This document shows, piece after piece, positions 44,150 to 50,330 of a stretch of 52,329 nt of DNA. A model generated the notes under the pieces. The model did no database searches, had not been told where the DNA came from, and was given only the letters and a program-made list of their open reading frames with translations. Positions within the stretch are counted from its first letter, which is position 1, and the number at the start of each line of letters is the position of its first letter. Both the position numbers and the translations under genes were made by a program. This DNA is from Gemmatimonadota bacterium (GTDB lineage: Bacteria; Gemmatimonadota; Gemmatimonadetes; Longimicrobiales; Gaopeijiaceae): contig SKNW01000044.1 of NCBI GenBank assembly GCA_007120305.1, forward strand, positions 1 to 52,329, in the 5' to 3' direction.

Positions 44150-45556
44150 ATGAACTCCGTCCGTACCGACGCCGCCGAGGCGACCGACCTCGTTCCGGGA
44201 CTCCGGGCCGTCCTCCTGACGGGGGATTCCGCGCGCCTGGCAGCCTTGCTTGCGGATCTGCGTCCACAGGCGCTTCTCGGTGTCTGGTACGAGCTCGAAG
44301 CGGAGGAACGGGAGCGCGTTCTCTCGGCCCTCCCGCCGGAGCCGGCGGCAGAGCTCCTGTCGAACCTCTCCTCCGAGGAGCAGCCCGAGATCCTGGAAAG
44401 CATGGCGTCTCTCCAGGTGGCGGAGATGCTGGAGGAGCTTTCCCCCGACGACCTGGCGGATACGCTCCAGGCGCTGGAGGCATACGATCCCGAGCGATCC
44501 CGCGAGGTTCGGGGATTCCTGGATCCGGCTACCCTGGCGGTGGCCGATGCCCTGACCGGGTACGACGAGGAGGAGGCCGGGGGGCTCATGACCCCGGAGT
44601 TCATCTCGGTGCGGGCCACCATGACAGCGGCCCAGGTCCTGACCTTCCTCCGCCGGGCGGCTCCCGACGCCGAGACCATCTACTACCTCTACGTGGTGGA
44701 CGCCGACCAGCGCCTGAAGGGGGTGCTGTCGCTCCGGCAGCTCATCGTGTCCCCGCCGGAGGCCAGGGTCCAGGAGATGATGAGCCCCGACATCATCTCG
44801 ATCCGCACGGACACCGACCAGGAGGAGGTAGCCCGCATCATGGCGGATTACGACCTCTCGGTCCTTCCGGTGCTGGACGACGATGACCGCCTGGTGGGAA
44901 TCATCACCGTGGACGACGTGCTGGACGTGGTGACCGAAGAGGCCACGGAGGACATCCACCGCATGGGTGGTGCGCCCATCGACATCGACTACGTGCGCGC
45001 CAACCCGTTTCTCCTCTTCCGGAAGCGGGCGTCATGGCTGGTCCTGCTGGTGGTGTCGATGACGCTCACCTTCAACGTCATCAACCACTACGAGCACATC
45101 CTCGCGGAGGTGGTGATCCTGGCGGCCTTCATCCCGCTCCTCATCGGGACCGGAGGCAACGTGGGTGCGCAGGTGGCCACCCTGGTGGTCCGGGCCCTGG
45201 CCACCCGGGAGCTGGAGCTCCGCGACTACTTCCGGGTTCTCTGGAAGGAGCTGAAGACGGGGATGCTCCTGGGGCTCGCGTTCGGGCTGTTCATGACCGG
45301 CTACGTCTTCTTCTTCCAGTCCGAACCCCGGATCGCCGTGGCGCTGGGGATCACCATGGTGCTCATTGCCCTGAGCGCCAACCTGGTGGGTGCGAGCCTT
45401 CCCTTCCTCTTCCGCAGGCTCGGCATCGACCCGGCCCTCACCTCCTCGCCTGGGATCACCACGGTCATGGATGTCCTGGGGCTCCTGATCTACTTCCGGG
45501 TGGTCATCTGGGTCCTGGGACCTCTCCTCACCGGGGAAGCGGCTCCGGCTCCCTGA
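44150..45556 (+). CDS. mgtE: Magnesium transporter MgtE
   Basis: 468 aa. The N-terminal superhelical domain (about 20-145) is followed by two CBS domains (about 150-275, including VQEMMSPDIISIRTDTDQEEVARIM) and five transmembrane helices. Signature segments FIPLLIGTGGNVGAQVATLVVRALA and the NPF-like loop preceding the first helix are in place. MgtE is a Mg2+ channel gated by cytoplasmic Mg2+ through the N and CBS domains. Its 3' end overlaps the convergent ypdA by 29 bases. No M-box riboswitch-like leader is possible given the short upstream gap. Confidence 0.97.
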   Translation: MNSVRTDAAEATDLVPGLRAVLLTGDSARLAALLADLRPQALLGVWYELEAEERERVLSALPPEPAAELLSNLSSEEQPEILESMASLQVAEMLEELSPDDLADTLQALEAYDPERSREVRGFLDPATLAVADALTGYDEEEAGGLMTPEFISVRATMTAAQVLTFLRRAAPDAETIYYLYVVDADQRLKGVLSLRQLIVSPPEARVQEMMSPDIISIRTDTDQEEVARIMADYDLSVLPVLDDDDRLVGIITVDDVLDVVTEEATEDIHRMGGAPIDIDYVRANPFLLFRKRASWLVLLVVSMTLTFNVINHYEHILAEVVILAAFIPLLIGTGGNVGAQVATLVVRALATRELELRDYFRVLWKELKTGMLLGLAFGLFMTGYVFFFQSEPRIAVALGITMVLIALSANLVGASLPFLFRRLGIDPALTSSPGITTVMDVLGLLIYFRVVIWVLGPLLTGEAAPAP

Positions 45557-46592
45557 CGGGGGCACCCAGGTCGGCGGGAGCGCCCAGGGCGCGCACGATG
45601 GCTCGGCCGTGCCATCGGCCATTCTCGATGAAGATGCGGTTGGCGTCGTTTCCCGCCGCCAGCACCCCGGCAATGAAGACTCCGGCCACCGGTGTCTCCA
45701 TGGTCTCCGGATCGTGGGCCGGGACGCCGGTCCCGGAGTCGATGGGCACACCCAGCGCCTTCAGGAGCAGAGGGTCCGAGCGCCAGCCGGTGAGCGCCAG
45801 GACGTGGTCGTTTTCCACCGTGACGAGCTGCCCCGTCTCCTCGGAGCGAAGCACCACTTCGTCGGGGCGGATCTCTGCCACGCGGTGTCCCCACCTGGCC
45901 TCGACCTCACCCTTCTCCACCCGGTTCTGGATGTCGGGGAGTACCCAGGGCTTCACGCCCCGGTCGAAGTCGTGGAGAAAGTGGACCAGGGTCACCTGCG
46001 CGCCGGCGCGGAAAAGCTCCAGCGACGCCTCCACCGCAGAGTTGGACCCTCCCACCACGAGGACGCGGCGACGCCAGTACGGGTGGGGCTCCCGGTAGTG
46101 ATGCGAGACCTTCGGCAGCTCCTCGCCGGGCACTCCGAGCCAGTTGGGTTCGTGGAATCCGCCGGTGGCCACCACCACGTGGCGGGCGTGGATCACGTCT
46201 CGCCGTGGATTCCTTCCTCCGGTTCCCCGGTCCCGCACGGTTCGGAGTCGGAAGGCGCCCTTCTCCCCCTCCACGGCCTCCACGTCCTCGTAGAGCCGGG
46301 TGGGGAGTCTGAAGTATTCCACCACCTTCCGGTAATAGGAGAGGGATTCCCGGCGACTGGCGTTCCGCTCTGCCGTCACGAAGGGGAGATCCTCGATCTC
46401 GAGCTTTTCCGGCGTGGAGAAGAACTGCATGTAGTAGGGGTACCCCACGATGGCCGCGCAGAGGGGCCCCCGGTCCACGAGCACCGAGGTGAGCCCGGCC
46501 TTCCGGGCCGCGGCCGCAGCGGCGATGCCGCAGGGTCCGGCACCGATCACGGCCAGATCCACGGAGGTGGAGGAATCGAGGGCGTCGGTCAT
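45528..46592 (-). CDS. ypdA: YpdA-family bacillithiol-disulphide reductase
   Basis: 354 aa. FAD-binding VIGAGPCGIAAAAAARKAG is followed by GYPYYMQFFSTPEKLEIEDLPF and a second NAD(P)-binding motif VLVVGGSNSAVEASLELFRAGA. The C-terminal segment has TPVAGVFIAGVLAAGNDANRIFIENGR. The pattern fits YpdA, the NADPH-dependent flavoprotein that reduces oxidised bacillithiol, rather than thioredoxin reductase (no CxxC). It implies that bacillithiol or a similar thiol is used. A TACGAT hexamer lies 4 bases before the ATG (read on the minus strand). Confidence 0.88.
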   Translation of the reverse strand: MTDALDSSTSVDLAVIGAGPCGIAAAAAARKAGLTSVLVDRGPLCAAIVGYPYYMQFFSTPEKLEIEDLPFVTAERNASRRESLSYYRKVVEYFRLPTRLYEDVEAVEGEKGAFRLRTVRDRGTGGRNPRRDVIHARHVVVATGGFHEPNWLGVPGEELPKVSHHYREPHPYWRRRVLVVGGSNSAVEASLELFRAGAQVTLVHFLHDFDRGVKPWVLPDIQNRVEKGEVEARWGHRVAEIRPDEVVLRSEETGQLVTVENDHVLALTGWRSDPLLLKALGVPIDSGTGVPAHDPETMETPVAGVFIAGVLAAGNDANRIFIENGRWHGRAIVRALGAPADLGAPVREPEPLPR

Positions 46593-46824
46593 GGGGATCG
46601 TATCCAGGTGCAGGCGGACCCGCCGGCGCTGCGCCGAAGGAAGAGGGCGAGGCTGCGGACGCGAAGGGGGGAGCGACTCCCCGTACCTTGAAGCGTGCCT
46701 CCCGTTCCCGAACGTGCCTGCCGGGACGCGCCTTCCCCTCCCCCCATTGCTCCGCTCCCGGACATCTTCGATTCTTCGGATGTCGTCTCCTGCCGACCTC
46801 CCACACCCCATCCCCGAGCCTGCC

Positions 46825-47088
46825 ATGATCCGCCCCGAATCCGAGGCCAGGAAGGCCCTCAACCGGCTCCTTCGGGCCGTGGAGAAGAGCCGCCGCGAGA
46901 TGGATACCCTGGCGGCGTCCATCCAGCACGCCGAGGGGGACGACTTCCCCATGGAGCGATACGACGAGGTGGCCCGGGACCTGGACCGGGTCACCGAATT
47001 CGTGCACGAGGAGGGACGGCGCCTGCAGAACAAGATCCTCCAGGCTGGCGGCCTGGAGCCGGGCCGAGTGCGTCGATCCTCCTCGTGA
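46825..47088 (+). CDS. Small helical protein upstream of the LuxE/LuxC pair
   Basis: 87 aa, unrecognised. It is highly charged and entirely helical in appearance (ESEARKALNRLLRAVEKSRR, then RYDEVARDLDRVTEFVHEEGR), likely a coiled coil. The ATG at 46825 is preferred; an in-frame ATG at 46780 would add 15 Pro-rich residues. Its stop overlaps the luxE-like GTG start (GTGA), so it is translationally coupled to the reductase genes and may be a subunit or regulator. Confidence 0.7.
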   Translation: MIRPESEARKALNRLLRAVEKSRREMDTLAASIQHAEGDDFPMERYDEVARDLDRVTEFVHEEGRRLQNKILQAGGLEPGRVRRSSS

Positions 47089-48314
47089 CGGGCCCTCCCA
47101 TCCCGGGCAGTTCCTCGATCCCGGAGGATCTGGAGTCGGAGGGCGCAGCCCTCCGGGACGCCCTCCTGCTACTCATGGGCCGGAAGGAAGCCGAGGGAGG
47201 AGAGGCGGAAGTCGAGGCCCTCGCCCTCCGCGTCCTCCGCTACCAGGCCCGGGCCAACCCGGTCTACGGTACGCTCCTCCGGAATCGCGGGCTGGATGCC
47301 GGGTCGCTGGAGCACTGGACCCGGTTTCCGCCGGTCCCCGCCCGTGCCTTTCGGGACGCCTCTCCGTACATCGGAGGCGAGGGCGGCAAGGGCGGGGACC
47401 GGGAGGGCGGGAAGCCGCCGGAGGCCGTCTTCCATACATCGGGGACCACGGGAACTCCCGGCGTGCACCGAGTCCGGGACCTGTCCCTCTACCACGCGTC
47501 GCTCCTTCCCCCGGCCCGCCGCCACCTGGGGCTGCGGGAACGGGAGCCGGGGACGGCAATGGAGAGCCGACCTACACGGGTCCTCGCCCTTCTCCCCCCC
47601 CCGGACACCCGTCCCACCTCCTCCCTGGCCCACATGGCTGGGGTCCTCGTCCACCGCTTCGATGACGGCGGTGGGGGATTTCTCCTTTCGGCCGACTGGG
47701 ACCTTGAGGTCGTGCGGGTGGCGGAGGCGCTGGAGCGCGCGCGGGCCGACGGAGTCCCCGTCCTCCTCCTGGCCACCGCCTTCGCCCTGGTCCACTGGCT
47801 CGAGCGCAGCCAGGCGCAGGGCGCGAGCGCGATCCGCCTTCCTCCGGGCTCCCGGATCATGGAAACCGGCGGGTACAAGGGCCGGAGCCGGGAGGTGGAG
47901 CGGCCGGTCCTCTACCATGCGCTCTCCGAAGCACTCGGCGTGCCACCCGAACGAATCGTGAACGAGTACGGAATGACCGAGATGCTTTCGCAATTCTACG
48001 AGCCGGTTCTGGAGGAAGGGGGGCCGGCCGATCCGTCGCTTCGCCGCCACGTGGGGCCGTCGTGGGTGCGGACGCGGGTACTGGACCCGGTAACCCTGGC
48101 TCCCGTCCCCCCGGGGGAGCCTGGCCTGCTCTGCCACCTGGACCTGGCCAACCTCTACTCGGCCGCGCTTCTTCTCACCGAGGACCGGGGCGTGTCGGTC
48201 CCCGGACCAGCGATGGATCACACCCCCGGGTTCCGGGTCCTGGGACGCGGATCCGGGGCCGTTCCACGGGGCTGCTCCCTCTCGCTGGAGGCGTGGATGA
48301 GGGCCAGCCCATGA
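47085..48314 (+). CDS. LuxE-like acyl-protein synthetase
   Basis: 409 aa. FHTSGTTGTPGVHRVRDLSLYHAS is the adenylate-forming loop of LuxE, and ERIVNEYGMTEMLSQFYEP is the family's second hallmark. LuxE activates fatty acids as acyl-AMP and transfers them to a partner, here probably the LuxC-like reductase encoded next (ATGA overlap). GTG start at 47085. The Gly-rich linker (EGGKGGDREGGK) near residue 100 is atypical. Confidence 0.9.
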   Translation: MTGPPIPGSSSIPEDLESEGAALRDALLLLMGRKEAEGGEAEVEALALRVLRYQARANPVYGTLLRNRGLDAGSLEHWTRFPPVPARAFRDASPYIGGEGGKGGDREGGKPPEAVFHTSGTTGTPGVHRVRDLSLYHASLLPPARRHLGLREREPGTAMESRPTRVLALLPPPDTRPTSSLAHMAGVLVHRFDDGGGGFLLSADWDLEVVRVAEALERARADGVPVLLLATAFALVHWLERSQAQGASAIRLPPGSRIMETGGYKGRSREVERPVLYHALSEALGVPPERIVNEYGMTEMLSQFYEPVLEEGGPADPSLRRHVGPSWVRTRVLDPVTLAPVPPGEPGLLCHLDLANLYSAALLLTEDRGVSVPGPAMDHTPGFRVLGRGSGAVPRGCSLSLEAWMRASP

Positions 48315-49705
48315 CGGAGGTATCCGTCCCCGTTCCCCTCCCCGGGGGTCTTGATCCCTGCGTCCTGCCCCCGGGCATGGTCGACCACCAGGCCACCGTC
48401 GGGGGACTCCTGGATCACCTGACAGGCACTGGAGCCGAAGCCCTGCGTGCGCTTGGGTTCCGGACTCGCCTGCAGGTCCTGGCCCGGGCCGGATCCCGGT
48501 TTCTCGACCCGGCGGACCCTCTCCGGCGTGAAGCCCTGGAGCGGCTCCCGGTCGACGCCGATCTGACGGAGCCCGGAGCCCGTCAACTCCTGGACGGCAT
48601 GGCCCGGGACTGGACCCTGGACCGTCTGGCCACGGCCCTCCGCGCCGACTTCCCCGATCCGGACGTGCTGGATGGATTTCGCCCCGGTATCCGGGGAGAT
48701 CGGCTCCGGGTCCTCCCTCCCCGGCTCCTGGTGCAGGTGGGGGCGGGGAACGTGCCCGGAACCGGGGCCACGGCGCTTCTCCGGGGGCTCCTGGTGGGGG
48801 CGCCTACCCTGCTCAAGCCGGGAGCCGGGGACCGGGTGCTTCCCGGGCTCCTGGCCCGTGCCCTCCACGAAGAAAGCGAGGCGCTGGCCCATGGGCTGGC
48901 CGTTGTGGGGTGGAGGGGAGGGAAGGGTGGCGACCTGGAGCAGGCTGCCCTTCGCCGGGCCGACCGGGTCGTGGTCTATGGGGGTCAGGAAGCCGTGGCC
49001 GCCGTCCGTGCCCTCACGGGGCCGCTGACGCCGGTGGTGGTGTACGGCCCCCGGGTGAGTGCGGGGCTGGTCCTGGCCGATGCCACGGGCTCGGACGGGG
49101 TGGTGGCCGATGCGGCGGCGGCGGTGTCCGCCTACGAACAGCGCGGGTGTGTCTCCCCCCACCTGGTCTGGGTTCAGGCCGGAGGGGGGCGATCTCCGGA
49201 GGGCTGGGCCGAGGCGCTGGGGTCGGCCCTGGCCGACGGTGCGCCAGGGGTATCCGCGGCCGTATCGCCAGTGCACGCCATGCGGGTCCTCCGGGATGCG
49301 GCCGAGTTCCGGGCAGCCGCGGGTTCCGGTGACCGTGTATGGGGCGGACCAGCAGATGGCTGGATGGTGCTCTTCGAGGACGAGGCGACGGGCGCGGATC
49401 CCCGCCCGTTCGAGCCCTCCTGCCTGGGGCGTACCGTGCGGGTGCGACCCCTCCCGGATCCCGGCACGCTGGCCTCCGTGCTTGCGCCGATGCGACACGT
49501 GATCCAGAGCGTCGCCCTGGAGGGGGCCGAGCCGGGGCGCACGACCACGGCCCTCCTCCTGGCGAGAGCCGGTGTCACCCGGGTGACGACCTTCCGGGAG
49601 CAGCCCTGGCCACCGGCCTGGTGGAAGCATGACGGGCAGGGACCGCTGGCCGCCCTCGTGCAGTGGGCCACGCTGGAGCCGGCCGACCGGGCGGGCCCCA
49701 GGTGA
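48311..49705 (+). CDS. LuxC-like acyl-CoA/acyl-protein reductase
   Basis: 464 aa. The mid-region VQVGAGNVPGTGATALLRGLLVGAPTLLKPG and the presumed nucleophile Cys280 in AYEQRGCVSPHLVWVQ match LuxC, which reduces an acyl group transferred from LuxE to the aldehyde with NADPH. The product would be a fatty aldehyde, but no luciferase (luxA/luxB), luxD thioesterase or luciferase flavin genes are nearby. The C-terminus follows the family with FREQPWPPAWWKHDGQ. It ends 6 bases from the convergent abrB-like gene. Confidence 0.9.
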   Translation: MTEVSVPVPLPGGLDPCVLPPGMVDHQATVGGLLDHLTGTGAEALRALGFRTRLQVLARAGSRFLDPADPLRREALERLPVDADLTEPGARQLLDGMARDWTLDRLATALRADFPDPDVLDGFRPGIRGDRLRVLPPRLLVQVGAGNVPGTGATALLRGLLVGAPTLLKPGAGDRVLPGLLARALHEESEALAHGLAVVGWRGGKGGDLEQAALRRADRVVVYGGQEAVAAVRALTGPLTPVVVYGPRVSAGLVLADATGSDGVVADAAAAVSAYEQRGCVSPHLVWVQAGGGRSPEGWAEALGSALADGAPGVSAAVSPVHAMRVLRDAAEFRAAAGSGDRVWGGPADGWMVLFEDEATGADPRPFEPSCLGRTVRVRPLPDPGTLASVLAPMRHVIQSVALEGAEPGRTTTALLLARAGVTRVTTFREQPWPPAWWKHDGQGPLAALVQWATLEPADRAGPR

Positions 49706-49711
49706 GGGGGG

Positions 49712-49903
49712 TTATTCCTCGGCCTGCTGCTCCGACCGCCAGACCACCATCTGCCGGTGGCCAGTGGCGTCTTCCTCCACCCGGACGGTCAGGGCGTCCC
49801 CTTCCTCGATGCCGAGGTCGTCGCGCATTTCCTGGGGGATGGTGATGCGGCCGCCGACGCCAACCGTCACTTCGCCGAAATACCGGGTGCGGTAGATGGC
49901 CAT
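49712..49903 (-). CDS. SpoVT/AbrB-domain transcription regulator
   Basis: 63 aa. FGEVTVGVGGRITIPQEMRDDLGIEEGDALTVRVEED is a typical swapped-hairpin AbrB/MazE DNA-binding domain. The C-terminal 20 residues are charged and no effector domain is present. No toxin gene is adjacent, so it is more likely a stand-alone regulator than an antitoxin. Start ATG at 49903 has GAGGAAA upstream, and a candidate promoter is further upstream. Confidence 0.9.
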   Translation of the reverse strand: MAIYRTRYFGEVTVGVGGRITIPQEMRDDLGIEEGDALTVRVEEDATGHRQMVVWRSEQQAEE

Positions 49904-50042: not shown

Positions 50043-50330
50043 TCAGGGGAGGAGGGAGCGAAGCATGGCCGCGAAGTGGTGCTCCTCCAGTCGTCGGGCG
50101 CGCTGAACGACCTCGTCGTAGGTGTCCTCGATGAGAAGAGGGATGGTGCGGATCGTGGGCTCCCCTTCGGACCGGTCCACCGGAGAGAAAGCCAGGAGTG
50201 CGCGGTAGCGGTCAGCGCCCCGGGGCGTGTCCTCGAACTCCAGGTAGACCTCCCAGAACCGGCCGTCGTGGCTCACGGTGGCCAGGTGCTGCCCGGCGGA
50301 GGGGCGCTGCTCGGAAGGGGGCTGGGTCAT
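50043..50330 (-). CDS. Uncharacterised protein, 95 aa
   Basis: I do not recognise the family. After a hydrophilic start the sequence has two short beta-strand blocks (FWEVYLEFEDT, YRALLAFSP) followed by helices (TYDEVVQRARRLEEHHFAAMLRSLLP). The ATG at 50330 gives a typical protein start; the longer frame is Arg/Pro-rich shadow. It lies 7 bases downstream of the MscS gene stop, so it is likely co-transcribed with it. Confidence 0.75.
   Translation of the reverse strand: MTQPPSEQRPSAGQHLATVSHDGRFWEVYLEFEDTPRGADRYRALLAFSPVDRSEGEPTIRTIPLLIEDTYDEVVQRARRLEEHHFAAMLRSLLP

Follow-up and report, generated by a model that had tools for sequence, protein, structure and literature searches.

A luciferase-free LuxE-LuxC gene pair preceded by an overlapping small helical protein gene in a Gemmatimonadota genome

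Organization of the locus

The window, that is, the whole stretch of Gemmatimonadota DNA analyzed here (52,329 nucleotides), contains three head-to-tail overlapping reading frames on the same strand, encoding a small protein, a LuxE-like protein and a LuxC-like protein. The features of the locus are as follows:

45528–46592, minus strand: YpdA/thioredoxin-reductase-like FAD oxidoreductase gene (Pyr_redox_3), divergent
46593–46824: divergent intergenic region of 232 bases, from the FAD reductase gene to the small gene
46825–47088, plus strand: small-protein gene, ATG at 46825 and stop at 47086–47088, 87 aa
47085–48314, plus strand: LuxE-like gene, GTG at 47085, 409 aa, predicted acyl-adenylating and acyl-transferring enzyme with a modelled PaaK-type fold
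48311–49705, plus strand: LuxC-like gene, ATG at 48311, 464 aa, predicted NADPH-dependent acyl reductase
49712–49900, minus strand: gene for an AbrB/MazE-type small DNA-binding protein, convergent with the LuxC-like gene

Both overlaps described in an initial annotation of this DNA are borne out by the frames read in the window. The GTG start of the LuxE-like gene overlaps the stop codon of the small gene (GTGA), and the ATG of the LuxC-like gene, at 48311, overlaps the end of the LuxE-like gene, at 48314 (ATGA). The intergenic region upstream is presumed to hold the promoter of the three-gene unit; a search of 46593–46824 for a sigma-70 consensus found none.

The two flanking genes are constant companions of the locus in family f1, the FAD oxidoreductase as neighbor of the small gene and the AbrB/MazE-type protein as neighbor of LuxC, the latter at the same spot in most f1 loci. 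The oxidoreductase lies outside the LuxE-LuxC enzyme, and the AbrB/MazE-type protein is possibly a local regulator. Farther along, positions 50043–50330 (minus strand) encode a 95-aa protein assigned to no Pfam family, and whose place close to the locus is conserved in about 28 cases. Also, a macro-domain (ADP-ribose-binding) gene adjoins LuxC in locus L055 (7259–7822) and again in L060, L119, L129 and L131, of family f1.

The LuxE-like and LuxC-like proteins

The LuxC-like protein matches the Pfam LuxC family PF05893 over its full length (profile positions 10–401 of 401; E 8.7e-48, 163.6 bits against a cut-off of 21), and the LuxE-like protein matches PF04443 (E 3.2e-16, 59.7 bits against a cut-off of 24.9) in the C-terminal half only (profile positions 192–387 of 391). 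Neither protein reaches the NCBIfam equivalogs of luminous bacteria, scoring 39.9 bits against a cut-off of 750 for LuxC (NF052251) and 37 bits against a cut-off of 550 for LuxE (NF052244). Their best sequence matches in the PDB are the two partners of a single entry, 7xc6, with the LuxC-like protein pairing with chain A and the LuxE-like protein with chain E.

The alignments to 7xc6 place the candidate catalytic residues of both proteins. The LuxC-like motif YEQRGCVSP, containing Cys280, aligns with YDQQACFS of chain A, and the LuxE-like motif RGCSL, containing Cys397, aligns with KGCSL in the C-terminal tail of chain E. Of the 100 Gemmatimonadota LuxC rows with a residue at the position of Cys280, 99 have the cysteine, and all 87 LuxE rows have Cys397. 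An adenylation motif, TSGTTG, occupies residues 118–123 of the LuxE-like protein and is present in nearly all Gemmatimonadota rows. The predicted model of this protein (pLDDT 88.8) adopts a PaaK-type adenylating fold according to Foldseek; chain E of 7xc6 is absent from its best 50 Foldseek matches, so that the link between the two comes from sequence.

Since both enzymes retain their catalytic-type cysteines, the most reasonable reading of the pair is that of an acid reductase dependent on ATP and NADPH. The reaction can be predicted from what is established about LuxE-LuxC chemistry. LuxE would use ATP to convert a carboxylic, probably fatty, acid into an acyl-adenylate, from which the acyl group would move to Cys397 and from there to Cys280 of LuxC; LuxC would then reduce the resulting thioester with NADPH, releasing an aldehyde destined for housekeeping use (alcohol, lipid or catabolism) rather than for light. 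Aromatic or short acids may also serve as substrates, being compatible with the sequences. The wax ester synthase family PF03007 has no match in the window genome, nor in the control genomes, which makes this negative uninformative.

A single LuxC and a single LuxE occur in the window genome, which comprises 2.03 Mb in 103 contigs and is 75.6% complete. No match to the luciferase-like family PF00296 was found in this portion of the genome and no luciferase gene near the LuxE-LuxC locus, which agrees with the initial description of a pair without luciferase; luxA and luxB, the hallmark of a bacterial bioluminescence (lux) operon, are absent from the locus. With regard to luxAB genes elsewhere, which that description had named as a finding that would count against it, nine PF00296 proteins occur in two f1 relatives (G001 and G005), none scoring above about 60 bits with LuxA/LuxB, far under the cut-offs of 600/500 bits, and they belong to other LLM families. 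Neither search revealed a hidden luciferase. LuxD only frees the fatty acid, reduction itself being the work of LuxE and LuxC. The absence of luxD, which had been regarded as odd, is therefore no anomaly, as LuxE and LuxC suffice.

Distribution of the pair and of the small gene

The named relatives are Gemmatimonadota MAGs, titled Gemmatimonadales, Longimicrobiales or Gemmatimonadota. LuxC turned up in 89 of the 98 relatives, LuxE in 86. The two genes are adjacent in families f1 and f2; in the f3 loci examined (L135, L136, L137), an S13 D-Ala-D-Ala carboxypeptidase gene and one for a zinc-ribbon membrane protein come between them. In the LuxC tree f1 and f3 each form one well-supported clade, indicating that the pair is old; it is vertically inherited and nearly universal in this order. 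Four loci (L170, L178, L180 and L181) come from records titled Gammaproteobacteria, and carry the Gemmatimonadota locus almost unchanged; these titles are probably wrong. No LuxE was found in the phages searched, and a literature search for LuxE/LuxC or ether lipids in Gemmatimonadota recovered no relevant paper.

LuxE-LuxC pairs usually bear the label 'bioluminescence'. In this order the pair is near-universal, vertically inherited and free of light genes, and so it probably meets a core aldehyde need.

The small gene has a narrower distribution, being present in 60 of the 98 relatives and, by profile search, in 100 of 394 genomes of the phylum, within f1 and f2 only. Its orthologues share 37–86% identity and a set of invariant residues that includes R9, R14, K21, E37, R66, G75 and G76, a pattern of conservation indicating that the small ORF is a real gene rather than a chance frame. 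The predicted structure is an antiparallel two-helix hairpin (residues 4–40 and 43–74, high confidence), in keeping with the 87-aa helical protein of the initial annotation. The tail that follows, KILQAGGLEPGRVRRSSS, is conserved and predicted to be flexible, with KILxxGGLEPGRVRRSS nearly invariant among orthologues. Searches against Pfam (with the single sequence and with 39 members) and NCBIfam yielded no match reaching the cut-off, a sequence profile run against the PDB gave weak coiled-coil matches only (best E 0.097), and Foldseek gave nothing with E ≤ 0.001. VIA-align returned many tied helical hairpins from unrelated proteins, so that the fold is uninformative on function. The small protein constitutes a lineage-restricted, undescribed family and, as a conserved unnamed family of one lineage with an invariant tail, offers a modest but clean target for study.

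Is this protein part of the reductase, as its position suggested to the first annotator? Of 36 named loci that extend 6 kb or more beyond the small gene on its downstream side, 32 have LuxE and LuxC in that stretch. At least 12 other named loci, several of which hardly differ from one another, share the four-base overlap between the small-gene stop and the LuxE start, and the small gene directly adjoins LuxE on several distinct branches of the LuxC tree; both features may be taken as signs of selection for co-translation. Synteny of this kind was the evidence on which the initial proposal was to be judged, and it holds in f1 and fails in f2. In all nine f2 genomes with the small gene, this gene and LuxE-LuxC lie on different contigs, and what follows the small gene is either a D-aminoacylase gene or an AIG2/GGCT-like gene, the latter identified by eye from its sequence, together with NatAB. 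In three f2 loci (L104, L105 and L108) it overlaps or abuts the AIG2/GGCT-like gene, and NatA-NatB ABC transporter genes follow.

The two also part company elsewhere. No small gene was found in f3, though LuxE/LuxC are present, and 27 genomes have LuxC without the small gene while three have the small gene only. G003 (L112), G009 (L111) and G010 (L113) carry the small gene and a D-aminoacylase gene, and neither LuxE nor LuxC; G009 is 96% complete, whereas G003 and G010 are fragmented or incomplete. In G010 the order is small gene, D-aminoacylase, AbrB, NatA, NatB, the Lux pair having disappeared from its usual slot and the remainder being intact. These three loci are useful as natural knock-outs of LuxE-LuxC. 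Co-occurrence of the small gene with LuxE/LuxC is not significant (Fisher p 0.41 in f1, 0.22 in the order). A dedicated subunit should be present or absent together with its enzyme, and the small ORF does not behave in this way; the subunit role proposed initially is not supported, in view of the three genomes without LuxE/LuxC, the separate f2 locus, the f3 pair on its own and the lack of co-occurrence.

The origin of the overlap may be sought in the genes that elsewhere lie between. Many f1 genomes have a D-aminoacylase-like, an FAD amino-acid-oxidase-like or a DUF5916-like gene (the last name read by eye from sequence) between the small gene and LuxE-LuxC. Where the D-aminoacylase orthologue separates the small gene from the Lux pair it shows 60–75% identity, and in the window genome (76% complete) it is missing, with paralogues of only ~40% present. 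The overlap therefore most likely arose from gene loss, a copy in the missing part of the genome being possible. Loss of the intervening D-aminoacylase-like gene in this sub-lineage would have left the small gene on a shared transcript and translationally coupled to LuxE.

The small protein is probably a neighbor rather than a part of the reductase, its independence at the biochemical level being inferred. Taking both lines together, we consider it likely, by a fair margin of confidence, that the locus encodes a two-component LuxE-LuxC acid reductase supplying a housekeeping aldehyde, next to an independent small protein that is not a subunit of it.

Other readings were weighed against this one. 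The small hairpin protein could be a lineage-specific scaffold or regulator whose helices dock on LuxE or LuxC while its tail gates acyl transfer, a version of the initial proposal stripped of the carrier function. The closeness of the small gene to LuxE-LuxC in most f1 genomes, the recurrent four-base overlap with LuxE and a strongly conserved tail resembling a binding motif would all fit such a role. It is nevertheless unlikely in view of the genomes in which the small gene stands without a Lux pair, its separate locus in f2, the f3 pair without the small gene, the lack of statistical co-occurrence and the frequent intervention of a D-aminoacylase, FAD oxidase or DUF5916-like gene.

Equally doubtful is an N-acyl-D-amino-acid salvage module, in which the D-aminoacylase would free an acid and a D-amino acid, LuxE-LuxC would reduce the acid and the DAO-type FAD oxidase would handle the amino acid, the window retaining only the reductase part. 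Several f1 genomes do show the order small gene, D-aminoacylase-like Amidohydro_3, DAO-type FAD oxidase, LuxE, LuxC, and the plasmid pairs of Pantoea and Azospirillum adjoin M20-type hydrolases, SDRs and ABC transporters. However, the substrates are a guess based on family names, the neighbor genes vary, the window genome lacks the D-aminoacylase orthologue, and f3 has the S13 D-Ala-D-Ala carboxypeptidase between LuxE and LuxC instead. As a context of LuxE-LuxC the module is plausible but unproven.

Improbable, too, is that the small protein acts as a lineage-specific adaptor whose GGLEPGRVRR tail couples LuxE-LuxC, or elsewhere D-aminoacylase or NatAB, to a shared partner; LuxE-LuxC reductases would then have their first described accessory protein. 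The acyl-carrier-like partner of the initial annotation, which would hold the acyl chain on its way from LuxE to LuxC, agrees with the small protein in size and helical content only and was rejected as extremely improbable: no serine that could bear a phosphopantetheine arm is conserved in 26 or 39 aligned rows, the predicted fold is a two-helix hairpin instead of the four-helix ACP bundle, and no Pfam family, PP-binding included, matches above its cut-off.

Comparison with known systems

The LuxE-LuxC pair, favored above as a housekeeping acid reductase, shares with the Photobacterium LuxC-LuxE complex (7xc6) its Pfam families, the two catalytic cysteines, set in corresponding motifs, and the predicted PaaK-type fold of LuxE. 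It differs from the luminous lux systems in having no luxA, luxB or luxD, in the gene order, with E preceding C, and in its low sequence similarity. The acid-to-aldehyde conversion with ATP and NADPH via a thioester, inferred here, is also that of the carboxylic acid reductases; those are single chains with a phosphopantetheine carrier domain, whereas here there are two proteins and no carrier.

Closer parallels are found among pairs without luciferase. Homologues of luxE and luxC occur without luciferase in flagellar glycosylation islands of Aeromonas group II (PMC7874193) and of Enterobacteriaceae (PMC4875605), where ACP, FabG, AMP-ligase and glycosyltransferase genes surround them; the pair described here adjoins no such gene, and no polysaccharide genes were seen. 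Plasmids of Pantoea, Azospirillum, Priestia and Lactiplantibacillus carry a LuxE-like gene next to a LuxC-like gene, ordered as here and without luxAB, the best matches showing 36–37% identity for LuxE and 30–34% for LuxC. Downstream of the plasmid pairs come an SDR gene, an ABC transporter or permease gene, or both, while neither an SDR nor a transporter gene is adjacent in the window. As these plasmid pairs and the published islands all lack luxAB, the luciferase-free LuxE-LuxC pair is a known and common kind, already published, and the pair described here is an ordinary member of it.
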